In this document: positions 5,741 to 59,790 of the stretch, piece by piece | Layout of the letters: each line of letters begins with the position of its first letter | Numbering within the stretch: the first letter of the stretch is position 1 | NCBI GenBank assembly: GCA_037043455.1 | Contig: JAWPHD010011500.1 | Coordinates: 19,367 to 83,366 of the forward strand | Source of the DNA: Cyrtodaria siliqua | Taxonomy: Eukaryota; Mollusca; Bivalvia; Adapedonta; Hiatellidae | Length of the DNA: 64,000 nucleotides | Reading direction: 5' to 3' | Made by a program: the position numbers and the translations under genes | Notes under the pieces: generated by a model | Databases searched by the model: none | The model's input: only the letters and a program-made list of their open reading frames with translations | Told to the model about the DNA's origin: nothing

Positions 5741-6430
5741 TCAAGACCACAGTCAACAAAAACACGCACAGAAACAATACTTACAAGATGAATCAAGCGA
5801 AAGATATGATGTCACAAACATAAAAAGGTTGAAAATAGGAACAAAAGAGCCTCTGGTGGTTTAAACCAGGTTCTAGGTTGCACCAAACCTCTTTCTTACC
5901 CTATTGTCAACCCAATAAAACGGGACAGTGTAAATAAAGATATCCCCGCCATGTAATATTCTCTAACAAACAAGGCAGCATTACTAGACGATACAAGTAT
6001 AACATATAAAAGAGCATGTATATATGAATATAAAAACAAGAGCCTAGAACACCACAAAGCAAGTACTCAATGACTTGGCAGAAATCAGAGCAATAAGAGA
6101 ACAAACTGTTAAGGGTACGCCAGACAAGATTTAAGACAAACAACAAACGCTACTGTCCTTTGAGGATTTACGTAGACAGGTCCACAATCCGTCAGGTCAT
6201 TACTTTCATAGAAACATAGACGCCATAAGAAGTAGCTCCGGGAACAGACCGATCTAAGTTGGAATAATTAACAATATCAACATTAAAATCATCTCTCTTG
6301 TCATAGATTATACTAATTATTTCACCATTTTCAACAGAGAGATGTAAATCAAGAAAAGAAGCGACAGTATCAGAAATGTTAGATGGGTCATTTTCAAAAG
6401 ATCGAGAGATAGCTGTCCGAGGCAATCTTC
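5741..6430 (-). mobile_element. Naiad (Penelope-like) copy A, 3' fragment
   Basis: The minus strand from 6425 encodes the C-terminal part of a Naiad reverse transcriptase, with the diagnostic phrases FLDLHLSVENGEI, IYDKRDDF and TSYGVYVS. It is joined to the conserved 3' tail (5741-6180). The join at about 6190 skips roughly 60 codons of the C-terminus that are present in the copies at 19 kb and 41 kb, so this copy has an internal deletion as well as 5' truncation. The tail ends exactly at the TG microsatellite, consistent with the reported insertion preference of Naiads for microsatellites. It cannot encode a functional protein. Confidence 0.8.
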
Positions 6431-12789: not shown

Positions 12790-14325
12790 TGCGAAAATAA
12801 TATATTTAGTACCATATATTAAAAAAGTATGAAAGGAGAAATTAGGATATCGTCGCCGGAAGACCATAGTTACAAAACATTTTAAGTTGCAAAATAACAA
12901 GATTACGTCTCAAAGCAACTTCCATCTCGATATTTTATTGGGCGGTTGATAATTGTGTGCACGTGTTTGCGCTAGTCATTACGTAATGCCTGTTTAGTGA
13001 TAGAAATGCTAATCTCCGTGATATAGTCGTTATACCTTCAGGTATTAAAGAACAAATAAGACCCCAAAGTCGCGTTCCGGGCAAAAAAGGAAAATTATAT
13101 GAAATATAATCGGACGTCGTATATTTATCGATTTTAATTGCGCAACGGCTAGATAGAATGTGTTATTGAGAGTACTGTAATAACAACACGTAACAATATT
13201 TTTTAAACTTTATTTTAATAGATTTTGCAAATAAATTGGGCGTGGCATGGCCTCAAGCATGGGGCTTAACAATTGGGCTGCCGGTAAGCACACAATATCA
13301 TTATGGCAAGCCCTTAGAGTAGAAAACATTAAGCAATAAAGCAAATTATTACAATATTAAGGACATAAATACATGTGCACCAAATTAAATGTTTATTATA
13401 AAAGCAACTTTTCAGATAAGATAAACAAGTGTTGAAAGCACGGTTAATATTCAAGCATAATTACAAGTGCAATCAATTCAAATGGTTTGTAGCAATACGT
13501 ACGGACAGCAAATTTGTATATAATTTATGTTTAGATAACAATTCAGTCTCTTTGTATACAGGAGCTGAATACAGTTAAACTGAAACTTATATGTCCTTCC
13601 TTTCACACCTTCGCTGCCCGCCTTATGGATGGGAGACCTCGCACTCCAAGTCATTGAGTGTCCAGAGTGATATTGTAAGCATCAATTTCTGGCTTTTTAC
13701 CTCTAAGTTTAAAATAGCTGACCCTGATGCGTAACCATAGAAATACCTTCGTTGGGTCCTTGTTTATATATGTAATGTAATTTCTTTTTGGGGTTTATGG
13801 CTCATTTAGTTTATTGTTTATCAATGTATTACTAAGGCCATGTATTTATATAACTCTAAAAATGTACCAATCCTGATGTACGAAAATCCTTTAAAACCAG
13901 TTTTTGTCAATAAATAGGTACTATCGAGGATAACGTAGATTTATCAATTGAATACTCCAGTAACTTTTAAAACCGTTTTGGAAATTTCATTCGATTTTGC
14001 GACTTAAATAGGATTTAAGAGAAATAATATAGTTTTAAAGAGTTAAAACCGTCTTTTACAGTTAAATTCGTTTTTTAAAATATAAAAGTTAATTAAAAAC
14101 ACTTTTGAGACAAGGATTAAATGTATCTCAACCTGATTTCAATGGTAACCTGATATAAAAATCATAAGATCGTTGGTCATATTTTCAAACAATCTTTATC
14201 AAATTTGCTAGACAGTTTATCATACGAGGTTATTACCTTAGCATTTTACAATGAACTGCATGTTAGTGGTTGACCCATGTACAATTAGACGGTATGTTTT
14301 CACTCTCATTGTGCGAAGTCCCGAC
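12790..14325. other. No gene recognised
   Basis: About 1.5 kb of AT-rich sequence with no protein-like open frame, no tandem repeat and no clear similarity to other parts of the window. Possibly old, unrecognisable element remains. Confidence 0.4.
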
Positions 14326-14329
14326 ATAT

Positions 14330-14790
14330 TGTGGATCCTATGATGACGTCTACCTAAATCCTGAAATAAATGCTAATGTTTAATGTTTGTCTTCAATCTT
14401 GTCTGTGGTATCTTTAACGATATATTTTATTGCCGCTCTGTCTTCTGCCAACGTAGATACATACTTGCTGTGTTGCTTTCCAAGCTTTGACTTTTTATGT
14501 TCATATACATGTAAGCATTGCCATCTTTGTGTTATATTTATATTGCCTATTACCTATGTCTAGTTTGCTAGAGGATATAGCCTGGTAGGGATTTCTTGGT
14601 TTACACTGTCCCGTTTAATTGGGATGATATAGGGTAATAGTTAGGTTTGGTGAACCCTAAAACCTTGTTTAAAACCCCAGAGCGGCCTGTTTGCCACAGA
14701 ACGTCCCAAGGCAGTACCGCTAATGTCAATAGTTTATGTTTGAGTTGTCGCACGCTTTGATGTTAGCTTTGTATACGTGTACTTTTGGTT
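14330..14790 (+). mobile_element. Naiad 3' tail fragment (plus)
   Basis: Same 3' tail as at 5741-6180 and 18.4-18.96 kb but in the opposite orientation. It runs from the TTCTGCCAA block, through the block corresponding to the heart of the tail near 14570-14600, TTTACACTGTCCCGTTT and GTTTAAAACCCC, to GCGGCCTGTTTGCCAC. No coding sequence is attached. The foldback element at 14868 follows shortly after. Confidence 0.65.
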
Positions 14791-18362: not shown

Positions 18363-19099
18363 TCCGCGAACCTCCCGCACGTACCGTACGCCACTGCTAC
18401 GGTACCTAAAAGTAGATATAAAAATCGAACAGGAAATGTAGCATTCGAGAACGACAGTCAACCACAAACACACAATACAACAAAGAACAACTATATATAA
18501 AGATGAATAAAAGGCAAGATAAGACATCACAAACACACAAGGGTTGACAATACGGCTACCCCTTTGGAACGGTCAGTGACAAAAGAGGCCGCTGGTGGTA
18601 TAAACCAGGTTCTATGGTGCACCAAACCTCACTCTTACACTAGTTTCATCCCAATAAACGGGGCAGTGTAAATAAAGAAATCTCCGCCAGGTTATAATCT
18701 CTAACAAACAAGGCAGCGTTAATAAGCAATATAAGTAAAACACATAAATAATCATATATATATAATATGAAACACAAAAGCCTAGAAAGCCACAAAGTAA
18801 GTACTCAATGACTTGGCAGAAGCCAGAGCAACAAGTGAACAAACCGTTAAGGGTACGACAAGACAAGATTAAAAAGACATTAAACGCTACCGTCCTATAA
18901 GGATTTAGGTAGACGTCATCATAGGGTCCATACTCTGTCCGGTCATCGCTTAATCAAAGAGGAAAGCATAGTGGCGAACTGTAAATGGGTCAACCACTAT
19001 ACATACAGTACTTTGCAAAGTGATAGGGTCATAACCTCTTTTGATAAAGTTTTTAACAAGTTAATAAAGATTGCATGAAAGTGATTATGACCAAGAATC

Positions 19100-22000
19100 T
19101 TACGAAGTTTGTAAATCACATCACCATAGAAGTCCTTGTCGCAGAAAAGTTCTTAAATTACTTTTATATTTTAAAAGTAGATCAGGGTTAGGATAATAAA
19201 ATTTAGCAAAGGTTTTTCGAAGTTTATGGTAAGGTAGCCCTGCTGGAGTACCTTTTTAATTATACAAATATTACTAAAGTACTCAACACGACTACAAGCT
19301 CCAGAGGAACAAATAAGTTGAGAAACATTAGACCCCATAAGAAGTAGAACGGGGAACATCCCCATCTAAATGAGGATAATTAACATTATCAAAATTTAAA
19401 TCATCTCTCTTGTCATAGATTTTACTAACTATTTCACCATTTTCAATAGAGAGATGTAAATCAAGGAAAAAAGTGACAGTATCAGAAATGTTAAATTTGT
19501 TGAGTTGAAGTTCCTTAGGATAGATATTATTAACCATAGTAGAAAAGAAAGGATTGTAAATGTTTAATATGTCATCCAAATACCGAGAGATGTTATTAAA
19601 GGCTTCACCATGAAATCTCTTTCATAGCAATAAAAGAACAAATCTGCAACAATAGGTGCACACTTCGTACCTATTGGGATGCCAACAAATGAAGAATAAA
19701 AAAAGAATACCTCCCGTGGGGTCTGAACCCAAGGCCTTAGATTCCCAGTGTACAAGAAGTAATTTAAAGATATTTCTATGGCGGCCATCCTGGATGTCGT
19801 GTTTACCTAATTTTAACAAATTTGAAAAACAGGCTCCTAAGGATCATCCATGTGAAGTTTGGTCAAAACTGACCAAGCTGTTTCTGAGAAGAAGATTTTT
19901 TTTAAAAAAAATCCCTATGTAAGTCTTTGCAAAACATGTGACCTTTGGGGCGGGGCCAAATGTGACCACATGATCGCCATCTGAACAGGCTTGGTAGAGG
20001 ACCATAAGCGTATAGTTAATGCAAAATATTAAACCTCTGGCTCTTGTTGTTTTAGAGAAGAATTTTTTCCCCCCCTATATAAGTCTATGTAAAAATGGGA
20101 CGCCCGGGGAGGGGCCAAATATGACCCCAGGTCACCATTTGAACAAATTTAGTTGAGGACCATAATCTGATGCTACATGTAATATATGAGAGCTCTGCGC
20201 CTTGTGGTTTCAGAGAATAAAAGTTTTTTCCTATATAAGTCTATGAAAAACATGCAAAATCTCAATATACAAACTTTGGACCCCCGGGGCGCGGCCATTT
20301 TTTTACCCCGGGGACTTTAAACAAACTTGATAGTCTAGGCGTTGGCGATCATTTTAAAAGAAAACTGTCAAAATCTGACCATGAGGTTCTTTTTTTTTTA
20401 AGGTTTCGATAATATATGGTAATGGCAGCCATCTTGGATGTCGTGCTGACCTAATTTTAACAAATCTAAAAAGCATTCACCTAAGGATTATCCATGTGAA
20501 GTTTGGTCAATATTGACCAGGCGATTTCTGAGAAGAAGTTGTTTGAAGCAAAAGTTACCGATGGACGGACGGACGGGACGAAGAGTGAATCCAATAGATC
20601 ACCTTGAGCATTCGGCACAGGTAATCTAAAACACGTTTTGATAATATTACAGGCCGAAAATGTAGTTTTTTTCTCCAGCCAAAGTATTTGAATGAGAGCA
20701 ATAACCTTGTCTTTGATAAGGTAAGATGTGGTAAGTGTGGAGAAGTCATAAGTACTTATAGATGGCACTTGACGTTTATTACAAATGTTATCAAGAACGT
20801 CTCTTGAATTTTTAATAGACCAAAATTAATTAATCCCAGAGATCTCGTAAGTTTTAGCACATTATTGTTAAATGTCATTACGTGGTCCGAGTATTAAATT
20901 TCATAACCCATCCAACCCCTTCTCCAAGAAGCGAAAACGGGGTTGGCTGGGGTTTAAAACAAAACCTTAATTTCGGCTTAAAAGGTTTGCACATTGTAAA
21001 ATTAAAACATGTAAAGGGTAATTTTAAACAGGTTATCACATTTGTTCAGTAAAAAACATGTTTAAAGGTATTTTATTGTTAAACTATCCGTTATAAAATT
21101 AAGTCAGGACCGTGTAATGGATTTTTGCCAGCAGTAAGACAAGAAGTTAAAAGTTTGGAGATGTTTCTGGAGGTGCATGCACTAGAATTTGAAATAAAGC
21201 GGGACTTATACGGATGTTCATGTAATTTAGGAATCCAGGACATAGTTTATTTTGCTTTTCGTCTACCCCAGCCTTGAAAGTAGTGCACCGAGTGATATGA
21301 GTGGAAACAACATCATCCTCAGTAGCTTGAACTGGAGCATACGAGTTCCAACGATAAAACATTGACGTAATGTAGGCGTCAAACAATACTTACATTATTA
21401 GCTGCTTTATCAGCAGGAACTAAAACAAATTTATTATGAAATTTTTAATTCCCATCTAGGTCTCGGAGGACATACTGAGGGTTAGCATTATAAAAGTAAT
21501 ACGTGTATCTATAATTTTTAAAATTTACTTTTTCTTTAGTAGAAAGAGAGCCTGAGTCCGCCGCATGTTCTCTACTACATCATTTTATACTAAAATCCTT
21601 TATGGATTAGGCGATCTGAGCACGACATGCATTAAAATCAGTAAGTAAAGGTAATCTATACTTAGGACCTTTAGAAAACAAATGCCGAATATGTTTATCT
21701 ACAATATCAAAATTACTCTGCTGGAGCATAACAAAAGTTTGATGTATTACACTCACATTCATTAGGAGTGTTATTTACTATATCAAGGTCAGAATCTATT
21801 TTGTTATAGTTGAAAACAATATTTCTAATTTGTGTTTTTATATTTATAACAAATTGCAGGACTTTCTGTTTTTTTTTAAATATTTAGGAATAGAATCAAC
21901 TACATGATTATCTCGAAAGATACTTGGCATGTCAATGAAATCAATACCCTTATTAAGATATAGAATTTTTAGAAAATGCCTGACGTGATCAGACTTCTTA

Positions 22001-22690
22001 TCAATATGGGGTCGGAGAACATGGTGTGTGCAGCTTTGAATTATGGAAGTAGTGTTATACAAGGGATCTGTACGAATGAAACTGTTGTCTACTTCCTCGT
22101 CAATAAACTTAAGTGAGAAAATGGACAAAGAGGTAAGACGTGAAAGCTTAGAGTGCTTTCCAGACTGTTTAAAAATAGTATGCAAATCAGCGACTGATAT
22201 GACATAGTTACACGCGATTTACGTTTGATGTTACCGTTACGCCTACGACCATGAGACCTAGAGTTACGCTTTCAAATACGAAATACAGAAACAATGTCAA
22301 AATTAGGATCATTTTAAATATTTTCATTTTGATAAATATTGTCATTAAGGCCGAGTGGATATGGTGTCTGCAAGTTTTTCATCCACTTAAGTTCTTCAAT
22401 ATGTCTAGCTTTTAATTTTTATTTTTAGTAATATTATTATCATAAAATATATTCAACCGGTTGAACAGTAACGTCACTAAAAGTATGACCTGATTGGCAA
22501 AGGTGTTAGAATAAGTGTTTTTTTTAACTTTTTAGGATTACCTGCATTATATTTATGTTCACGAAATCGAAATCTTTTAAATATCGAGATTGTGTACCAC
22601 AACGTGCTGCATTTCAAGTTAAAACATAATGACGTGAGATGTACGTCAATCAACACTTGAAACTAGACATATATTGAACATTCTACCATT
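19100..22690 (-). pseudogene. Naiad ORF of copy C: GIY-YIG endonuclease + CxC linker + reverse transcriptase
   Basis: Order on the minus strand: (1) endonuclease remnant at 22690-22360, with the Cys/His lead-in, RCGTQ in place of the GIY start, a damaged core, and KARHIEELKW at the end; (2) basic linker with KRNSRSHGRRRNGNIKRK (22270-22215); (3) the conserved region with FIRTDPLYN and HVLRPHIDKKSDHVRHFL (22090-21960); (4) CxC motif as NECECNTSNFCYAP (near 21730-21770); (5) reverse transcriptase with VPADKAANN (21420-21385), WIPKLH (21240-21220), VGIPIGTKCAPIVADLF (19690-19640) and the catalytic YLDD (19571-19582); (6) C-terminal FLDLHLSIENGEI and HLDGDVPRSTSYGV. TGA codons at 22646-22648, 22614-22616 and 21379-21381 coincide with those of copy D. 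Frameshifts and the insertion at 19.69-20.62 kb make it inactive. Confidence 0.85.
19690..20622. mobile_element. Non-coding repeat inserted in Naiad copy C
   Basis: The sequence breaks the Naiad reverse transcriptase just after the GIPIGT motif and replaces about 150 bases of it. It consists of several diverged sub-units of about 150-200 bp. These share the blocks GTGAAGTTTGGTCAA, TTTCTGAGAAGAAG, TATATAAGTCTATG and GGGGCC, and GGCGGCCATC/GGCAGCCATC TTGGATGTCGTG appears at both ends of the series (about 19781 and 20421). A GGACGGACGGACGGGACG run follows near 20562. No open frame resembles a transposase. It looks like a non-autonomous dispersed repeat; class not determined. Confidence 0.6.
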
Positions 22691-25836: not shown

Positions 25837-27058
25837 AACTCACCTTGTAATAAATATGAATGAATATAACGTATATGCCCTATCCTGCACCGGCTAGGAC
25901 AACTTCCTCTCGACGAATGGGTCTACTAGAAGAACGCCATTCTCCGAGTAACGGTATAATTGAATGGAGTTTATTGTTAACTGACAAATCCCAAGCGGCT
26001 TGCCCATATATGTGTTAATACAACTTTTAAAATCAGTATAAGGTAATTTGGTATTAGATATATGTAAACCTAATGCTGCTTTAGCAGGACTATCAGCTCT
26101 ATCATTACCACGTATTTCCACATGGCTTGGAAGCCAGCAGAAAATAATAATATTATCAACTATAAGAGAATTGTACTTTTCTAAAAGTTGAAGCACAACT
26201 GGGTTATCATGTTTCATATTACCCAGTGCTTGAAGAAATGAAAGGGAATCAGAAAAGATTATAAAATAGTCATCATCAAATTCCTGAATATAATTTAAGG
26301 CAAGTTCAATTTAGAACCATCTGTTTATATATGTTGAAAGTTACTGTATTTCGATTTAATTTCATTAAATTTGCTTTGAAAGACAGTAGGGTATTGGATT
26401 TGTTACTATTACAAAGATCGAAAATAATTGTTGGTGTTTCCAAAGTCTACGGTGGAATTTGTGATAATTTGTACTTGGCAATCAGATTTAGGTCGATTTC
26501 AGTGTCTCCTAATTTTGGTTTAATACGAAGACCAAATGATCGAATGGCCTTCATTTTTCGATCAAAAAGAGGTTCATAACTAGGATTAAAAACATTATCG
26601 AAAGTTGGGTTTGAAGGGTTAGATTGTAGTTTAATGGCATATTGAAGGGCTAATTTGTCCCGTCTATGAGACAGTGATGGTTCATTCGCTTCAACGTATA
26701 GACTTTCGGCTGGTGATGTACGAAAGGCACTTAAGGCGAGTCGTAATCCTTGATTATGTATAGGATCGAGCATGTGCAAATATGATTTGCGTGTCGATCC
26801 ATATACTATTGAGACGTAGTCCAGCTTGGATCTGATAAGAGATCTATAAAGTTGTAAAAGCACTTTACGATCTGCTCCCCAATTAGTGTTTGCAACAACT
26901 TTAAGTAAATTAAGAGCTTTAAGGCACTTGGTCTTCAAGTATTTAAGGTGTGGTATAAACGTCAATTTACGGTCGAAAATAAGACCAAGGAATTTTGTTT
27001 CATCCACGTCTGGTATTGGTGACCCATCCGGTGTTAGATGAGGGTCTTCATGATGTTT

Positions 27059-27733
27059 CGACTACATCACACCAGTGTTAAAGGAGCTTCACTGGCTCCC
27101 AGTGCAATACCGGATTGACTTTAAAATATTGAGTCACATCTATAAAGCCTTAAATGACCAATCTCCAAGCTACATCAAAAACATGTTAAAGGTGTATAGA
27201 CCAAAGCGTGACTTAAGATCCCAAAGTGACACTCTGACTCTTGTAGTACCAAGATCTCGTACAGTTACATACGGTGACCGTAGCTTTGCAACTGCTGTTC
27301 CAAAGTTGTGGAACGCGCTTCCAGTGGAAATCCGGAATTCCAACACACTTGACTCTTTTAAGAGATCACTGAAAACTCATTTCTTTTTAATGATATATAG
27401 TGGCTGATGTGTATTTTAAGCTGGACTATTTCATAAATGATTACCATTGTTTTATCATCTTATTATGACAGTACTATTTTTTTTTAAACATGGATTTTAA
27501 TTTTAGTCAGTATAATAATAATGTCTTAACTTTATCTTAGCAATATAATCTATATGTTGTTTTATATTTTACCACTAAATATTTTCGCATATCTTAGAGT
27601 TAATACATGTATTGTTCTTTTTTAGTTTTGACTGTGTGTGAATGTATTATTGTTTTACTTGTAAAGCACTTTTGAACGTATGTTATATATGAAAAGAGTG
27701 CTATATAAATATGGTATAATAATAATAATAATA
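27059..27733 (+). mobile_element. L2/CR1-like LINE, 5'-truncated, nested in the I-like LINE
   Basis: Encodes the last part of a LINE ORF2: ITPVLKELHWLPVQYRIDFK, then IYKALNDQSPSYI, TYGDRSFATAVPKLWNALP and SFKRSLKTHFF, with a stop at 27405-27407. The 3' UTR ends in GTGCTATATAAATATGG and an AATAAT repeat, the usual tail of L2/CR1-type elements. It lies opposite to and inside the minus-strand LINE. ATGTTT flanks both sides (27053-27058 and 27734-27739); removing the insert plus one copy rejoins the host frame as ...QLRK-HHEDPHL.... It is younger than the I-like LINE and 5'-truncated, so dead on arrival. Confidence 0.85.
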
Positions 27734-29160
27734 ATGTTTACGTAGTTGACAAAAGTGCATACAGTTAGTTTTAGATTTAGAAAATTTAAAACCATTTTCA
27801 TCCGACCAGGTCTGAAGTTTATTCAGACATTGTTGCAGTTGTCTTTCAATAGTGTTCATGTTTTTTTCACGATAACATACAACAAAGTCATCAACATATA
27901 GAGAGCAATCCACACCAGGAATGATGCATTTACCTATACTGTTAATTTTTATATTAAAAAGGGTGACAAAGAGTATGCGTCACTGTGGAACACCCATCTC
28001 CTGTTCATGGATGTCAGAGAGGGTCGGACACGAAATCTATCCTCTAAGAAGTTTTCTATGAACATTTGTAATCGACCTCTAAGACCAAGGTGGTCATAAA
28101 GATCATTCATGATACCGTACTTCCATGCAGTATCATAAGCTTTCTCCAAGTCAAAAAATACAGCGACTAGATGTTCTTTCTTTACGAAAGCTTCCCTAAT
28201 AAATGATTCAAATCGAATGAGATTGTCTGCTGTGACTCGTTGGCGCCGGAATCCACTTTGATACTTTGTTATCAGCTTGTTGGATTCCAGGTACCAAACG
28301 AGTCTCTCATTAATCATTCGTTCCATGGTTTTACATATACAACTCGTTAAAGCAATAGAGCGATAATTTATTGGGTCCGTATGATCCTTTCCAGGTTTGG
28401 GGACTGGAATAACGATTGCTTCCCGCCAAGAATCGGGGAAGTTTCGGGTCACCCAAACCTTATCAAATATATCAAGAAGTGTAGAGAGACAGGTTTCAGG
28501 TAAATGTTTTAATAATTGATAATGGATATCTTCAGGACCAGCGGATGTATCATGAGCCTTTTTAAGGGACTCTCGAAGTTCTTTGAGAGTGAACAGTTTA
28601 TTGTATTTCTCTAAATGTTTAGACTTGAAATTCAGCTTCTTCTGTTCTTTTAGCTTCTTATTTTTTAGAAAATTTGGTTGACAATTTTCAGAAGAAGAGT
28701 TTTTAGAAAAGGTTTCTGCCAAAGTATTTGTAATATCTTTGACAGATGTAATATCATCATTATCAGTTTTAAGATGATTTACACAACTAGAATTACCATT
28801 ACCGTTTATTTTCCGGACCATGTCCCACGTCTTCTTAAGAGATGAACGATAGTTCAGTCTAGAGACATAAGATCTCCAGGATTTCCTCTTACTATCCTTA
28901 ATTGTACGACGGGCTTTCGCACGAAAAACTTTAAAAGTATCTTAATCATTTTGAGTTGGCCGCAAATTAAAAGCATTCAACGCAGCTTTACGATCGCTGA
29001 ATGCCTTTTTGCAGTCATCATCGTACCATGGTTTATGTGGGCGTTTTGGATTTGCCGAGGTTTTTGGAATAGTTTGATCAGCTATATCATGAAGGGTTTT
29101 GGTAAAAAGAGCAGTTGCGTCTTCGACATCCTCGAAAACGGTAGGCTTAATTTTGTACTA

Positions 29161-38872: not shown

Positions 38873-40803
38873 TGAATGAATGAATGAATGGTGTTTTAAG
38901 CACGTCGACACATAAATAGGTAATACTGTGCGTAGAAATTGATGAAAAATGAAGAAATGAAGAAGTAATTAAAAATTAATGTAAATATATAAAGATAAAA
39001 CTATTTACAAATAAGGTATGATATTGTAGTAATTTAAACTATATATGTAAATCAACAGATGCCCGTCAACGGGTATATAAATAAGTAAATATATATAAGA
39101 ACATATTATAATGATTTATAAAGTCTAATTTCTTTCAGGAAATCTGAAACAAGACTAAAATCTATAGTATCAAATAACTCTTTCATAGTATTAACATTGT
39201 AGTACCTTTGACGCATAGGATCAAAGTCTACACATTCCAACAATATGTGTTTGACCGTTAGCGGTGCAAACCAGGGTATACATTCTGGTATTTGCTCACC
39301 TTGTAATAAATATTAATGATTATAACGTGTATGCCCTATCCTTCACCGGGCTAGCACAAATTCTCCTCGACGAATGGGTCTACTAAAAGAACGCCATTCT
39401 CCGAGAAACGGTTTAATTGAATGGAGTTTATTGTTAACTGACAAATCCCAAGCGGCTTGCCAAGAGTTACGAACATATGCGTTAATACTACTTTTAAAAT
39501 CAGTATAAGGTAATTTGGCATTAGATATACGTAAACATAATGCTGCTTTAGCAGGACTATCAGCTCTATCATTACCACGTATTCCTACATGGCTTGGAAG
39601 CCAGCAGAAAATAATAACATTATCAACTATAAGAGAATTGTACTTTTGTAAAAGTTGAAGCACAACTGGGTTATCATGTTTCATATTACCTAGGACTTGA
39701 AGTGAAAGGGAGTCAGAAAATATTACAAAATGGTCATCATCAGATTCCTGAATATAGCTGAAAAGATAAAGACCGTGTCAGGCAGGCGGCTCTTTATGCT
39801 GTGTTTGTGAACAACAGGTGCTGCAGCTACCTTATCTCCATCTTTAGAACCATCTGTGTATATATGTTGAAAGTTACTGTATTTCGATTTAATTTCATTA
39901 AATTTGCTTTGAAAGACAGCAGGGTCTGTCCTGGATTTTTTTACTATTACAAAGATCAAAAATAATTGTTGGTGTTTCCAAAGTCCACGGTGGAATGTGT
40001 GGTACTTTGTACTTGGCAATCAAATTTAGGTCGATTTTAGTGTCTCTTAATTTTGGTTTAAACCGAAGAGCAAATGGTCGAATGACCTTCGGTTTTCGAT
40101 CAAAAAGAGGTTCATAACTATGGTTAAAACAATATTGAAAGTTGGGTTTAAAGGGTTAGATTGTAATTTAATGGCATATTGAAGGGCTAATTTGTTTACG
40201 TCTGTGAGACAGTGATGGTTCATTAGCTTCAACATATAGACTTTCGGCTGGTGATGTACGAAAGGCACCTAAAGGTCTCACTACACAGTTAGCTCCCTTG
40301 AAAGCCACGGTATAATTCTTGCGCCTAAAAAGTAGTAGTGTGTTCTTCGGTTTTAAATATTTTTAAAAATTGCGGACAGATATGTTTATTGTTGTTGCCG
40401 GTGAGATGAACAGAGTCTGAAATTGGATGTGCAGCTATTAGATGACACTGTCACCAAAATAAGGCAGCGTTATGGGTGTTGAAGAAGAGTAGGAATTCTG
40501 ATCCAAACTCTGGAGTTAAAGCCCAAAATAGTGCATTGGAGGACACCTCTAATTAAAAAAAAAACCTGGTCAACGTACCAGATTTTGTACAGTTTTGTGT
40601 GAGAAAATGACTTGGTTACATAAAAATGTACCGGTTAGCTTGGAAACTTCCTGTTTGGAATGGCCCTGTACACTGTATTCATATAGGCCAACATAGTAAA
40701 AATGAACTGTGTAGTGAGACCTGAAGTGAGTCGTAATCCTTGATTAAGTATAGGATCGAGCATCTGCAAATATGACTTGCGAGTCGATCCATATACTATT
40801 GGG
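38873..40803 (-). pseudogene. I-like LINE copy 2, 5'-truncated, with TTCA-repeat tail
   Basis: Same family as the LINE at 25.8-30.8 kb. On the minus strand it begins (truncated) near 40803 within the IVYGSTRKSY region, is interrupted by a TIR element at 40273-40722, and continues with YVEANEPS-like sequence. RNase H follows with HIYTDGSKDGDKVAAA (near 39865-39820) and CWLPSHVGIRGNDRAD (39600-39555). The C-terminal segment has SFSRPIRRGEFVLAR, and then, after frameshifts, a Cys-containing end (CIPWFAPLTVKHILLECVDF, near 39280-39220). The 3' end is an AATG/CATT repeat at 38873-38892. This copy preserves the RNase H and 3' end that copy 1 has lost. Confidence 0.85.
40273..40722. mobile_element. 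450-bp TIR element nested in the LINE
   Basis: Ends are perfect 18-bp inverted repeats: AGGTCTCACTACACAGTT (40273-40290) and AACTGTGTAGTGAGACCT (40705-40722). Comparison with the uninterrupted LINE near 26722-26750 shows the target was around GCACTTAAGGCGAG. The flanks now read CTAA and GAAG, so a TTAA-like duplication is possible but not proven. There is no transposase; it is a non-autonomous DNA element of uncertain superfamily. Confidence 0.85.
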
Positions 40804-40814
40804 TGACTATTAAG

Positions 40815-43220
40815 CCATATGAACGTGATCATGACCAATGATCTTACGAAGTTTGTAAATCACGTCACTTGTCGCAGAAGAGTCTTAAATTAAATTACTT
40901 TCATATTTGGAAAGAAGATCAGGGTTACGATAATAAAATTGTGTAAATGTTTTACGAAGTTTATGGTAACAGTAGCCCTGATGGAGTAGCTTTTTAGTTA
41001 TACGAAGATTACGAATATTAAAGTCCTTAACACGACTACCAGCTCTAGAAAAACGAATAAGTTCTGACACATAGACCCTATAAGAAGTTGTTCGGGGAAC
41101 ATCCCCATCTAAATGGGGATAATTGACAATATCAAAATTAAAATCATCTCTCTTGTCATAGATTTTGCTAATTATTTCACCATTTTCAATATAGATATGT
41201 AAATCGAGAAAAGAAGCGTTAGTATCAGAAATATTAGCTTTGTTAAGTTGAAGTTCTTTAGGATATACCAACAATTTGGCTATAAACGGTAGTTCCGTTC
41301 CATACCTGATAAAAATATTATCTAGTAGAAAAATATGTGATTCACAAACTTCATGGCAAGCCCACATAGTGTAATTGTCCAAACTCATGTTAGTAAAATA
41401 CGCTTTAATATTGTTACAGGCCAAAAACGTAGTATTTTCGCTAGCAAAAGTTGTCTTCGATAAGGTTGTGTGGTAAAGTTGTATATAATTAGAAAAACCA
41501 TAAGTACTTATAGATGAAGCTTGACATTTATTGCAAATGTTATGAAGAACGTCGCGTGATTTTTTACTAGACCAAAATAAATGTTTCATAAGCTTTAGTA
41601 CAATAATGTTTAACGTGATATTTAACGGCAATAGGACAAGATGTTAAAAGATATTTGTAGTGGTGCAAGAACTAGAATTGGAAATAAAACGGGCGTTATA
41701 CGGTTGTTTGTGTAATTTGGGAATCCAGTACATCATGCTTTTCGTCTATTCCAGCCTTGAAAATCTTGCTCTGAGTGATATGCGTCGAAACAACATTATC
41801 TTCAGTGGATTGAACTGGAGTAAACGAATTAGTACTCCCAAGTTCCTAAGATAAAAAATTGACGTAATGGACGCGTCAAACAATAATTATATTATTAGCT
41901 GCTTTATCAGCAGGAACTAAAACAAATTTATTATGAAATTCCTGAATTCCCGATTTTAAATTACGAAATGAAAACCTAGGTCTATGGGGCGGTATTGGGG
42001 GGTTAGCCGTATAGAAGTTAATACGGGTATCTATGATGCTGAAAATAGTATTTTTCCAAGTAGAAATGGAGTCAGGGTCAGCATGTTCTCTACGACAACA
42101 TTTAATACTAAAATCCTCAATGGATTGGGTGATCTGACCACGACATGCATTAAATGTATCACAGAAGGCAATCTATTCTTCGGACCTTTTGAAAACAAAT
42201 GCCGAATACATTTATCTTTAATACCAAAATTACCAGTAATGACGTGACCGGCGGAGCATAGCAAAATTTAGATGTTCTACACTCGCATTCCTTAGGAGTG
42301 TTATTTACTATATCAAGTTCAGACACTATTTTGTTGCAGTTGAAAATCATATTTCTAATTGGGTTTTTGTACTTGTAACAAATTATAGGATTTTCGGAAT
42401 TTTTGAAATATTTAGAAATAGAATCAACAACACGATTATCTCGAGAAATATTTGATATATCAATAAAAATCAATGCCCGTATTACGATAACGAATTTCTT
42501 AGAAAATGTCTGACGTGATCAGACTCCTTGTCAATATGGGGTCGGAGAACATGCTGCGTGTAGCTTTGAAATAGGGAAGCAGTGTTATACAAAGGATCTG
42601 TTCGAATGAAAATTCTGTCTGCTTCCTCGTCAATCAGCGTAAGTGAAGAAATGGATAGAGAGGTGACACAAGAAAGCATCGAGTGCTGTTCAGACTGTTT
42701 CAAAATAGTATGTTAATCAGCGACTGACATAGTAATACATGATTTCCGTTTGATGTTACCATTACGTCTACAACCATGAGACCTAGAGTTACGCTTTCGA
42801 AAGGAACATACAGCAAAAATGTCTCTTTTGAAATATATCCTTGTTGATAAATGTTATCATTAAGGCCCAGTGGAAAGGTGTCAGTTTTTGATCCACTTTA
42901 GTTCTGCTATATGTCTAGCTTTTATTTTAAAGTTTTTGGGTGCATCATTATCATAAATTATATATTCAACAGGTTGAACAGTGACGTTACTAAAACTATG
43001 ACCTGACTGACGAAAGGGTTGGTACAGGTAATTTTTTAACTTTTTGAGATTGCCCGCATTATATTTATGCTCACGGAATCGAACTTTTAAGGAACGACCT
43101 GTTTGTCCAACATATTGTATACCACAACGTGGTGCTATTCAAGTCAAAACATAAATGACGTGAGAAGTACGTCAATCAACATTTGAAGCTAGACATATAT
43201 TAAATATGCTACCATTAACA
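40815..43220 (-). mobile_element. Naiad (permuted Penelope-like) copy D
   Basis: Minus-strand element with the endonuclease upstream of the reverse transcriptase. Its 3' tail is probably the split tail at 38365-38872, separated by the nested LINE. The reverse transcriptase core has lost about 240 bases between the LDNIFIRYGTEL and YPKELQLNKAN phrases, which removes the GIPxGT and YLDD motifs. Confidence 0.85.
40830..43215 (-). pseudogene. Naiad ORF of copy D with in-frame TGA codons: GIY-YIG + CxC + reverse transcriptase
   Basis: The endonuclease is well preserved: CGIQYVGQTGRSLKVRFREH (43125-43066), then KYNAGNLKKLKNYLY, FRQSGHSF and KARHIAELKWIKN (to about 42882). Upstream, NVD-TGA-RTSHVIYVLT-TGA leads into PRCGIQ; the TGAs are at 43172-43174 and 43139-43141. 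Next come the basic linker RKRNSRSHGCRRNGNIKRK, FIRTDPLYN and HVLRPHIDKESDHVRHFLRN (42600-42490), and the CxC motif KECECRTSKFCYAP with CEC at 42279-42287. The reverse transcriptase N-part has VPADKAANNIIIV followed by TGA at 41876-41878 and RVHYVN, then WIPKLHKQPY (41730-41700), ACHEVCES and the C-terminal KIYDKRDDFNFDIVNYPHLD. Other damage includes several frameshifts, a TAA in SVAD-HTI, and deletion of the catalytic core. Inactive copy of a probable selenoprotein-encoding element. Confidence 0.85.
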
Positions 43221-43224
43221 GTGA

Positions 43225-44330
43225 CTTGCAATATAAATCGAAGGTACTGAGAGCATGGTGAACTATGATGCAATTGCGTCTTAGAATAAGGTCGTGTTTG
43301 ATTACAATGAAACCGGAACTGGATTCAAAATCCATACTGTTTGTTTACAACAGTTTTGATAAATCTTGAACAAGATTTGAGAAACCGCGAATCCTGCTCT
43401 CGGGATGGATTCGTGCAGATTCAAGACGGATCATTCGGAACACTTCGGCCAATGATGCTACGAATGACAACAGATCAGGCCTAAAAAAAGTGTTTTTTCG
43501 GGTAACATCTTCAAAAAAATTAGGTAGGGTTGGGATTTTTTGTTTATTAATTTGTTTTTTTCCTCTAACTTTGGATGGCTAAAACAGAACCTTGGATGGC
43601 GGACCTTGGAACAAGGTGTGTGTTGAATGTTCCATGCGTTAACTGTTATTTCATTAAATAAATAAAACATTCAATAGTAAATAAACTTAATAAACCTGAC
43701 AATCCTGTATTACTTATCAAAAGCTGTTCTTGTGTACACTGGTCACAGATAATGTTTTGCCATTTGCAGGCTTTGAAGGACAGATTTAAATTCAATGATT
43801 TCAAGACATATTAAGTCTTTTAATATTAAAATTTACCCAAGGGTTAAAATATTCATAAAGACCAGGCATTCACAATTTATTTTTATTTACCAAGTAATTT
43901 ATATTTTTGACTAGGGTTAAACAACAAACCACATTAAAAATACACTCATAAAAATATTGATGACTATTAAATATTTCTGTGTGTTTACTCAATTTATTAT
44001 TTTGTTCATGATGACTCTGACATCATTTCATTCATTTATATTTACATTTCTAATGTAAGTACACATACAAAACTAGAAACATCCATTTGACCATGAATCA
44101 CATTGTAATTGCTTCACGCGCAGTTAAAACTATGACGTTTCAAGAAAAAACAAGTGAGGTGTGACGTGAGTATACCATAAAAGGTTAGGAAGGCAAGGCT
44201 TTACGTACGTTTACGCGGTCCCATTTGCCGTGATAAATATAGGTGTTATTCTGCATTTTTATCAATTTAGAGAAAAAAATGGTTGAGAAACGGGATATAT
44301 GGGTATTATTGAGTACAATAATAATATAAA
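43225..44330. other. No feature recognised
   Basis: AT-rich sequence upstream of Naiad copy D; the minus-strand 70-codon frame at 43458-43670 has no recognisable motif. The pseudo-LTR or 5' leader of the Naiad could begin here but I cannot define it. Confidence 0.4.
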
Positions 44331-48060: not shown

Positions 48061-49654
48061 CACTCAACAAAATTCCTAATCGGTCACCTCAATAAATTGT
48101 AATTAAAAAAAAGAATAAATTCAATTTCGTGAAATTATTGATCGCATAAGAAAGCGAAATTCATTACAAATCAACAAACAAAATTTCATTTCAAACAAAT
48201 AAAGAGTTGACATCTTCTGCAGGAATGAATAAGGCGACCCGGTAATTCAAAAGTCACAAAATCGTGTTAATTGACGTCTGTAGTATGTTAATAGCGTGTA
48301 TGCCCTCCACCGGCAGCAATCACGGCTCGACAACCACTCCTCATTGATACAATGTATCTGTGAAGATACTGTTGACGGATATTTCTCCAAACGCGGTTGA
48401 CGTCACGCTCCAATTCCCGTAGATTCAGCTGCTGAGGATGGGCCCGTACCTTTCGTTTTAATAAGTCCAAGACACGCTCGATTGGGTTTAGGTCAGGACT
48501 TTTAGCAGGAAAATGGATCTCGTATGTTATTGGCCTGTAACACTGCCAATGTTGCTCTGGCGACATAGCACGGAGCGTTGTCTTGGACGAGTTGCATTCC
48601 ACGGTTTGCAGCAATGTGTGGTATAAGGACAGGTTGAATGATGTCCGTCTGATATCGTCGTGCATTCATGTTGCCTTGTGTGGACACGATCGGTGTTTTG
48701 GTGTACATCGAAATGTCCGCCCATATCATAATGGATCCTCCCCCAAAGTGGTCTGCCTCAAGAACACAATTGGCGCTGTTTCTCTCACCACGCCGGCGAT
48801 AAATGCGTTTGCGGCCGTCGGCACAACGCAATGTAATCCTTGTCTCGTCGACGAAAAGAACATTCGCCCAGTCGGCCCTGGTGAACCGTACCAAGCTAAG
48901 CGAGCTTGACGGTGTCTCCTCGTTAAGATAGGACCTTTCCGAGGTCGACGGCATCGAATTCCGACGTCACGTAACCGGTTTCGTACGGTTTGAGTTGATA
49001 CATGACGTCCATGAGTCCCCCTAGTATGCCTAGATGTCGTTGTAACTGGTAGAAAACGATCACGGAGATGTGATACGATCATGTATCTGTCCTGACGTTG
49101 TGTTGTCAACCTCTGTTTGAACCGTCGGGGTCGATCAGCGACACTTCCGGTTTGGTTGATTTCGCCCAAAGAGCTTGGATGGTGGATAGCCGCCGATTGA
49201 AGGTTCTTGCCACCTGAAATAAAGTTAAAAACGGAAATAGCCACCAAAATAATAGCTACAAATAAATTATATCGATGTTCTTTTGAAATTTCAAAAAATA
49301 AAACTCACCTGTCGTAAAGGTGTTCCGGCATGTAACATTCCGACAGCTCGGCCGCGTTCCTCTTGTGTCATTCTCGCCATGGTATGTGTTTTTCAAGTAG
49401 GAAAATCATCAACAATGACAAAAATGTACATGAACAGGTGCATATTGGTGTCCATGAACTGCACGTGCAACATGTGCTATATTGGTCAACACGCCTAACA
49501 CGCTTAATTTGACAGCGAGCCGGCCAGAAAAAAAATCAATAATTAGCTGCAGTACCTATTCAAATATCGATATGTGAAATTTCGTGTTAATACATGCATT
49601 ATTATAAAAATAGTAATACAATATAAACTGACCGATTAGGAATTTTGTTAAGTG
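48061..49654 (-). mobile_element. Tc1/mariner element, both ends present
   Basis: Terminal inverted repeats of 26 bp with one mismatch begin CACTCAACAAAATTCCTAAT at 48061 and CACTTAACAAAATTCCTAAT, read on the minus strand, at 49654. TA flanks both ends (48059-48060 and 49655-49656), the normal duplication of this superfamily. Total length is 1594 bp, typical for Tc1. The single gene inside runs on the minus strand and is frameshifted, so the copy is structurally complete but inactive. Confidence 0.95.
48288..49380 (-). pseudogene. Tc1/mariner transposase, frameshifted, with a small intron
   Basis: Start ATG at 49378-49380: MARMTQEERGRAVGMLHAGT, then TPLRQ and a GT splice donor (49309-49308). 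After 96 bases an AG acceptor (49215-49214, preceded by a pyrimidine-rich TTTATTTC) resumes in frame as VARTFNRRLSTIQALWAK, the helix-turn-helix region. Further on, GSVADRPRR, HLRDRF and TVRNRLRDVGIRCRRPRKG follow in a shifted frame. The catalytic domain has FVDETRI (first Asp, near 48850-48862), QDNAPC (second Asp, 48570-48587) and SPDLNPIE (Glu, 48477-48500), compatible with DD34E spacing. It ends with GGGHTRY at 48288. At least three frame changes separate the parts, so no active enzyme is made. The splice signals are seen; use of the intron is inferred. Confidence 0.85.
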
Positions 49655-55489: not shown

Positions 55490-56330
55490 TAGAAAATGTA
55501 GTTATAAAAGTGAAACAGAAAATGTAGCTTTCACAGAAAACAGTCAATCAAAAACACGCATTTAAAACAACCGACAATTACAAGGAAAATAGAGGCAAAT
55601 AATGCAAGATCACAAACATAAAAGGGTTGAAAATAGGGGCTTGGGACGGTCAGTGGCAATACGATCATGTTGACTGTGTCAACTTGACAGGTGTAAGTTT
55701 TCTCAATTTGACATATATATTTATATTTCTCAATTTAATTTTGAAAATCCTCTTATTTTCCTCAGTATGTAATTTGATATTGATTTTTTCAATTTGATAT
55801 TGAAAACCGTCTTATTTTTCTCAATATGTAATTTGATATTGACTTTTCTCAATTTGATATTGATAAACTTCTTATTGTTTCTTAATACTAACTCTACTAA
55901 TGTAACGATTCCGTCTGTAACTGTCTGATGGCTACACAATGCATACATTTACATAAAAAAAAAGAAGTTAAAAAGGTCGAACAGGAAATATAGCATAGTA
56001 AACCCAATAACACGGAACAGTGTAGATAAAGAAATCCCCACCATTCTATACCCTCTAACGAACTACTAGTATGCAGTCTTACTAGGCAATATAAGTATAA
56101 CGCAAAGATGATCATGTATATATGAATACACAGAAACAAAAGCAAGGAAAGTCGCGAAATAAGTGCTCAGTAACTTGGCAGAATCCATCGCAACAACAAG
56201 ATATATCATTACGGACACGACAAGACACGATTGCAGACAAACAATAAACGTTACCGACCATTTCAGGATTTATGTTGTCATCATATGTCGGGTCATCTCA
56301 CATTCAAAGACGAAAGCATAGTGTTTTATC
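55490..56330 (-). mobile_element. Naiad 3' tail, rearranged (minus)
   Basis: Two tail portions: about 55490-55660 (ACAGAAAATGTAGC, ACAAACATAAAAGGGTTGA, GGACGGTCAGTGGCA) and about 55968-56330 (AATAACACGGAACAGTGTAG, ACTAGGCAATATAAGTATAA, GTAACTTGGCAGAATCC, TCATCATATGTCGGGTCATC). The second part repeats AGGTCGAACAGGAAATATAG, which belongs to the outer end of the tail. So this may be two tail copies joined, rather than one copy with an insertion. The segment between (55690-55880) is a local tandem repeat. Confidence 0.6.
55727..55880. repeat. ~67-bp tandem repeat, ~2.5 copies
   Basis: TGTAATTTGATATTGA followed by TTTTCTCAATTTGATATTGA-like text and a TCTTATT block recurs with a period of about 67 bp. 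The minus-strand frame over it (55730-55948) is repetitive and not a gene. Confidence 0.65.
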
Positions 56331-58713: not shown

Positions 58714-58842
58714 TAGATAAGTGGTAATATGTATTGCTAGGATGTTTGGGGTTTACCACTCGTTTTACTATTCTTGTTGACGCGTGTTGGGGAGCCTTTT
58801 GAGTTTGTTATAAGCCTAGGGATGATCTTCATTGACAAAGAC

Positions 58843-59125
58843 ACTCATGGACAATGTTGAGCCAATCACACCGACACTCAGGGATAATGTTGAGTCAGTC
58901 ACACTGACACTCAGGGACAATGTTGAGCCAATCACACCGACACTCAGGGACAATGTTGAGTCAATCACACCGACACTCAGGGACAATGTTGAGCCAGTCA
59001 CACCGACACTCAGGAACAATGTTGAGCCAATCACACCGACACTCAGGGACAATGTTGAGTCAATCACACCGACACTCAGGGACAATGTTGAGCCAGTCAC
59101 ACCGACACTCAGGGACAATGTTAAG
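58843..59125. repeat. 33-bp minisatellite, ~8.5 copies
   Basis: Units of 33 bp (ACACTCAGGGACAATGTTGA followed by a CCAATC, TCAATC or CCAGTC variant and ACACCG) run in tandem. Because 33 is a multiple of three, several frames on both strands stay open: 11-residue repeats such as NVEPITPTLRD on plus and STLSLSVGVIG on minus. This gives 77-118-codon frames without any sign of selection. Variants follow an approximate three-unit order. Confidence 0.92.
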
Positions 59126-59129
59126 CACG

Positions 59130-59790
59130 TGTGTGAGGTGCACGCACAAATAGAACAACATGTGTTTCTTGGCCAAGTCGGCTCATGAGATATTTCAATA
59201 GAATGTTATCATACATATCTCGAATACGAATGGCGTCAACCAACTATAGTGCTAGTGTTATGCGTGTTATCATCAGAACCTTGGAGCAACATCATAAAGA
59301 TAGGGCATTCTCAAAGGAAAATGCTGCTGCATCCAAAATTAAAAAATTAATAATTTATTGTTAGATACATGTTTTGTAGTTACTTTACAAACTAATAATT
59401 TGTTTAAAGTTGTTTTGCTTTAACTATGCTGGCCGCTAGGTAGTCTTGATCATCTTCGAACCTTGATTGTAAATAACAAACGTATTGCCCTTTGTGCAGA
59501 AAAAACGATGAAACCGGAAACCCTGTCTGTAAAAAAAAAAATATAGTATTTTGAGCATCCACATTTAGTTCGTTGATGTAGTGATGAAGTTTCCCTCTTA
59601 GTTATTTATTAATTTAGTGTATTTTCTGCCGTTCTGTACACTCTTCGATAAAAGGTGCATCTGTATTAGTCAATCAGAAACGATACCAGAATCCCGGAAA
59701 CTTTCAAAATTTTGTTTGAAGAACTGTTCAAGACGTATTGTCTAGATCTAGACTATCCGCTAAGGAGAATAAAGAAGTATAGGCAATGTT
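59130..59790. other. No feature recognised
   Basis: AT-rich spacer; nothing recognised. Confidence 0.4.

Follow-up and report, generated by a model that had tools for sequence, protein, structure and literature searches.

In the window, by which we mean the whole 64-kb stretch of DNA analyzed, one Penelope-like retroelement is represented by several decayed copies on the minus strand, together with fragments on both strands (Table 1). In copy D and in copies from elsewhere in the source genome (a 2.88-Gb assembly of 26,948 contigs), a GIY-YIG endonuclease is followed by a linker with a CxC motif and by a reverse transcriptase (RT). The GIY-YIG domain of copy D spans 43228..42884 and precedes the linker and an RT running to 40888 within one ORF. 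The linker motif reads NNTPKECECRTSKFCYAP in copy D and NNTPNECECNTSNFCYAP in copy C. The order of an N-terminal GIY-YIG domain and a C-terminal RT, which we take to be the hallmark of Naiad elements, is the basis for naming the family Naiad, and the linker CxC motif is presumably a hallmark of the same elements. A coverage profile gives an element length of ~4.1 kb in locus L026. Searches with three pieces of copy D returned no Pfam family, a PDB sequence search gave nothing meaningful, and scans of viral contigs and prokaryote genomes found no relatives. Single-sequence structure prediction for the GIY piece reached a pLDDT of 38.5 and was unusable.

Decay is widespread among these copies. 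Part of the RT middle is missing from copy D when compared with L016, and its 3' end is cut off, the match to copy E stopping at 40819. An alignment of copies C and D, 1652 columns long and with 125 gaps, shows 77.7% identity, which indicates that they decayed separately; the initial annotation had likewise noted their many differences and independent frameshifts. No intact copy was seen among those examined, and frameshifts and stops interrupt the frames that were read. When TGA is read through, the longest Naiad frame, in L014, comprises 367 aa; a 728-aa frame in L017, presumably unrelated, is not counted here.

Other repeats share the window. A satellite-like tandem array, in which 65-nt and 67-nt units alternate (about 42 in all), extends from 7303 to about 10100. 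Minus-strand fragments with RT and RNase H-like frames, presumably of LINE type, lie at 25894-28941 and 39343-39777, and sequence related to them follows the broken 3' end of copy D near 40810, as judged by eye. Overlapping broken frames at 48288-49304, also on the minus strand, presumably derive from a Tc1/mariner-like DDE transposase. An in-frame tandem repeat at 58816-59205 is open on both strands (VEPITPTLRDN and GSTLSLSVGVI units).

Table 1. Naiad copies, TGA sites and SECIS regions in the window (positions of the window) and subfamily X copies elsewhere in the genome (positions of the named locus).
Feature	Position	Strand	Basis and remarks
Naiad copy D (GIY-YIG domain, CxC linker, RT)	40888..43228	-	Frame pieces; decayed
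Naiad copy C, same three TGA codons	21148..22693	-	Sequence and alignment to D
Naiad copy E, RT C-terminus and 3' tail	18500..19579	-	Sequence match
Putative Sec site 1 TGA, copy D (NVD-U-RTSHVI)	43172..43174	-	Sequence; 32/37 TGA in family
Putative Sec site 2 TGA, copy D (VLT-U-IAPRCG; family xAPRCG)	43139..43141	-	Sequence; 31/38 TGA
Putative Sec site 3 TGA, copy D (VPADKAANNIIIV-U-RVHYV, RT start)	41876..41878	-	Sequence; 20/28 TGA
TGA sites 1/2/3, copy C	22646-22648, 22614-22616, 21379-21381	-	Sequence
SECIS of copy E (AUGA core, UAAAU loop; 3' core reads UAA)	18870..18932	-	SECIS_1 16.4 bits; R1 79.0 bits, own row
SECIS region, tail copy F	14323..14400	+	R1 73.5 bits, own row; helix II unformed in own fold
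SECIS region, copy A	6126..6193	-	R1 45.4 bits, not in model
SECIS region, old tail copy G	56227..56305	-	R1 33.3 bits, not in model
Subfamily X copies	L049:3794-5973, L050:3505-4277	+	Divergent Naiad; one copy each

Conserved in-frame TGA codons

The initial annotation had pointed to TGA at three homologous codons in copies C and D, and all six are present on the minus strand as it described them. Site 2 precedes the GIY-YIG core IQYVGQTG, with four residues between the TGA and the Cys that leads into this core. The context of site 3 in copy D can also be given as NNIIIV-TGA-RVHYV.

The family-wide behavior of these codons was followed in 41 sequences, comprising the 40 best-scored places fetched from the source genome, copy D included, and copy C of the window. 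The query consisted of 761 bases of D and gave 4787 first-look candidates in 2.88 Gb, 40 of which were scored. Protein pieces, seven in all and each taken from a single copy, were located in these sequences by tblastn, and codons were tallied column by column over all copies. The count covers 1091 codon columns with at least 12 of the 41 copies, overlapping query pieces being counted twice; it excludes the N-terminal extremity, the final dozen codons, short stretches between pieces and columns of thin coverage. Two pairs of loci of 4.5-5 kb, nearly identical but placed on separate contigs, are allelic or assembly duplicates (L044/L046 at 99.0% and L040/L041 at 99.5%), and L044 and L046 have no codon placed at any of the three sites.

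Among the 1091 columns, stop codons form the majority solely at the three sites, and in each the stop is TGA; no counted column has a TAA or TAG majority. With duplicates removed, the minority codons are TAA (2), AGA (2) and TGG (1) among 37 copies at site 1; TGC (2) and TTA, CGA, TCT, TAT and TAA (1 each) among 38 at site 2; and TAA (2) and TGG, TGT, TGC, CCT, CTC and ACT (1 each) among 28 at site 3. Some odd codons are alignment slips, for example the CTC of L042, which by eye adjoins a TGA. Cysteine codons occur within the family as TGC in 2/38 copies at site 2 and as TGC or TGT in 2/28 at site 3. All three codons are TGA in 16 of the 28 copies that have all three sites aligned. This conservation is far above chance. 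The copies were picked by likeness to D over 761 bases, which would bias the sample toward the subfamily of D but hardly toward single codons. At fixed in-frame positions it is UGA that is conserved and not other stops, as expected of a selenoprotein.

CpG decay offers one explanation for such columns, under which the sites were once CGA (Arg) and became TGA after insertion. The process does happen in this family. Opposite the TGA of RI-TGA-KRNS in copy C, copy D has CGA, and this column is not stop-rich in the family, in agreement with the earlier reading of this codon as simple decay. An origin of the three sites by the same route requires a share of CGA and CAA like that of CGA-majority columns, which is absent from the tally: CGA occurs in 0/37, 1/38 and 0/28 copies at sites 1, 2 and 3, against 203 CGA, 11 TGA and 9 CAA in the eight CGA-majority columns. 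In the 33 Cys-majority columns, 498 TGT and 323 TGC stand against 17 TGA (overlapping pieces are counted twice in both sets). Since CGA- and Cys-majority columns keep their codons, neither kind of decay, of CpG or of Cys, turned such columns to a TGA majority. Decay from CGA has next to no probability as the source of the three sites.

The SECIS hairpin at the 3' end

Rfam SECIS_1 (RF00031), with a cut-off of 35 bits, was the reference model for the 3' end. The 3' end of L009 exceeds this cut-off at 39.4 bits, as the only one of 20 loci to do so. A search in sensitive mode of 13 of the 20 loci (64 kb, without L009) gave main-family tail matches in 10 of the 13, at 22.8-34.6 bits and all below the cut-off. 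One of these 10 loci also has a match in a divergent subfamily, here called X, at 30.2 bits. Among the matches listed for these 13 loci, none lies elsewhere in the 64 kb and all are at Naiad 3' ends. The window has no SECIS_1 match at the cut-off; the sub-threshold match of copy E falls just after the RT (E 4.8). A genome-wide Rfam SECIS search found no match in 150 scored of 159921 candidates, control genomes behaved likewise, and the comparison is uninformative. A descriptor scan was discarded, as it allowed one bulge where this hairpin needs two steps; its 11 starts in the 41 copies were scattered, and known cases escaped it.

Alignment of 23 tails reveals the elements of a type II SECIS, namely the AUGA..UGA quartet, an AA(A) loop, helix II and a mini-stem. 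The AUGA core is kept in 21/23 tails, the AAA loop in 21/23 and the UGA of the 3' core in 18/23. The alignment leaves out L022, L027 and a short L046 tail, which have larger changes, and an allelic L046 tail. When the named SECIS structure is applied to the alignment, 91.8% of cells are paired, compared with at most 52.9% when it is slid by up to 3 columns. Covariation in the family is modest, with 3 pairs changed on both sides, a number reached by 63 of 500 shuffles. Single folds contain the SECIS helix in 14/23 tails (at least 6 of 9 helix-II pairs), and RNAalifold on the 23 tails chose another fold in which the SECIS helix is absent. By DNA position, the SECIS lies 3' of the UGAs in the same element; in L026, ~3.1 kb separates it from the GIY motif upstream.

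A family model, R1, was built from the 23-row alignment. Its search of 43 sources at E <=0.1 returned 34 tails, mostly own rows or alleles, and four in the window. The SECIS of copy A lacks its AUGA core owing to a 9-nt deletion. Shuffled versions of the four window tails fold as well as the tails themselves (z -0.80, 0.12, 1.45 and -1.15).

The checks proposed by the initial annotation included a consensus codon at the three sites and a SECIS search of the 3' tail, and it had named a consensus of TGC/TGT, TGG or CGA, or the lack of any SECIS-like structure, as outcomes that would count against its proposal. Neither outcome appeared. Each of the three sites has a majority of TGA, rather than of TAA, TAG, TGG, CGA or TGY, and the 3' tail carries a SECIS in L009, with weaker matches in 10 of 13 other loci.

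The divergent subfamily X extends these observations. Its two copies lie at places that L018 and L020 overlap. Over the RT end, X differs from main-family stretches by a pS of 0.71-0.85 in all 27 comparisons (some loci entering twice), and pN is 0.23-0.31 in 21 of the 27 and 0.32-0.42 in the other six. Site 3 of X reads LVPADKASHNINIV-TGA-RLHYI in L049, and a further old copy in L049 has TGA there too. The X match of the sensitive search is at the 3' end of L049, where the stem letters are unlike those of the main family. The 3' core is TGA in L050 and CGA in L049, and a SECIS_1 search of L050 gave no match. A diverged subfamily has retained both site 3 and a SECIS, in one copy.

This retention bears on a different account, in which ordinary nonsense mutations gave rise to the three TGAs in a single dead source copy, which the enzymes of an autonomous partner then multiplied as a non-autonomous family. 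The broken frames read, with no intact copy seen, fit such an origin, as does the choice of copies by similarity to D. Against it, the three stops are all TGA with no TAA or TAG majority, a SECIS is present at the 3' end, and X keeps the site-3 TGA and a SECIS in one copy across saturated synonymous change, with low pN. Shared variants point the same way: among 144 single-step variants found in at least 4 copies, 74 are at third positions and 37 and 33 at the other two (59 synonymous, 85 non-synonymous). This distribution suggests selection on source copies, to a moderate degree. We consider a dead source very unlikely.

The UGAs might also be read through without selenium, by generic readthrough or a reassigned UGA, the 3' hairpin being a chance resemblance. 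The scores of the sensitive search are all below the Rfam cut-off, and the four window tails fold no better than shuffled sequence, both of which would suit this alternative. A reassigned UGA, however, should produce TGA at many columns, whereas among the columns counted it is the majority at three only. A chance hairpin is hard to reconcile with listed SECIS_1 matches that all fall at Naiad 3' ends, and with a divergent subfamily that has a SECIS built from other stem letters. Selenium-free readthrough is very improbable indeed.

Overlap of the reading frame with the SECIS

The reading frame of the main family runs to ...VRHYAFLFNCAMTGQAVDPMMTST-UAA and ends inside the hairpin. The AUGA core and the apical UAAA each fall within the stretch AUG AUG ACG UCU ACC UAA A (MMTST-stop); two Met codons make the core, and the UAA stop supplies the first three letters of the loop. 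UAA stands at the loop position in 22/23 aligned tails. With the frame set by the loop, it is open from a YAFL-like motif to the loop UAA in 14/26 tails, a set that contains one allelic pair. In X, the frame of either copy instead runs into a UGA belonging to the AUGA core.

We tentatively propose a dual-coded, stop-codon-bearing SECIS, a reading we consider possible but doubtful. On this view, the different placement of the stop in X, together with its other stem letters, would make the overlap old and maintained. A ribosome finishing the protein would then have to open the hairpin, which would couple recoding to termination, and a conserved protein end may have given birth to the SECIS. Such an overlap would offer a concrete model for the emergence of a SECIS from coding sequence.

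The selenocysteine reading and related systems

We favor, with a probability of about 0.92, the interpretation that the element is a Naiad-type Penelope-like retroelement whose single ORF encodes a multi-selenocysteine selenoprotein. The TGA tally and the 3' SECIS thus support the selenocysteine-encoding retroelement suggested by the initial annotation. Counted against this reading are the lack of an intact copy, a SECIS_1 cut-off reached by 1/20 loci, weak folding and covariation, and the L050 tail without a SECIS_1 match.

The three UGA codons would most likely be read as selenocysteine by the host machinery, with SBP2, EFsec and tRNA-Sec recruited by the SECIS hairpin that this RNA carries at its 3' end. 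Selenocysteine at site 1 would stand just before the conserved RTSHVI stretch, at site 2 it would form the first residue of the Cys pair leading into the GIY-YIG core, and at site 3 it would be part of the motif VPADKAANN..IV at the start of the RT. As the first member of the Cys pair, the site 2 residue would sit in a zinc-binding cluster, a role suggested by its position. Motif context and the make-up of related elements suggest that selenocysteine would take the place of an ancestral cysteine at the three sites, where a zinc or redox use of the residue is conceivable. Selenocysteine would thereby be placed at the entry of the endonuclease and of the reverse transcriptase, positions at which the consequences of replacing Cys by Sec are open to testing. 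The number of first-look candidates obtained with a single query, 40 of them scored, makes the family look numerous, which would tie the activity of the element to the selenium supply of its host.

Selenocysteine Naiads are already known. Naiads of clams and spiders reportedly encode selenoproteins with several selenocysteines. Selenoprotein-encoding transposable elements are, to our knowledge, very rare, and we know of no cases beyond these. Among the papers accessible to a literature search, no other account of selenocysteine Naiads was found. The present family is a further member of this group, and possibly the same family if its host is among the reported clams. The clam and spider elements reportedly have in common with it the N-terminal GIY-YIG domain, the CxC linker, the C-terminal RT and several in-frame UGA codons. 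Canonical Penelope-like elements (Penelope/Poseidon, Neptune) share the Penelope-type RT, the GIY-YIG endonuclease and the Cys pair before the GIY core, whereas the present family has the reversed domain order and a UGA at the first position of that pair. With eukaryotic type II SECIS elements (RF00031) it shares the AUGA/UGA core, the AAA apical loop and the mini-stem. Eukaryotic SECIS elements usually lie wholly within the 3' UTR; in the present family, by contrast, the 5' half of the element is coding and contains the stop codon.
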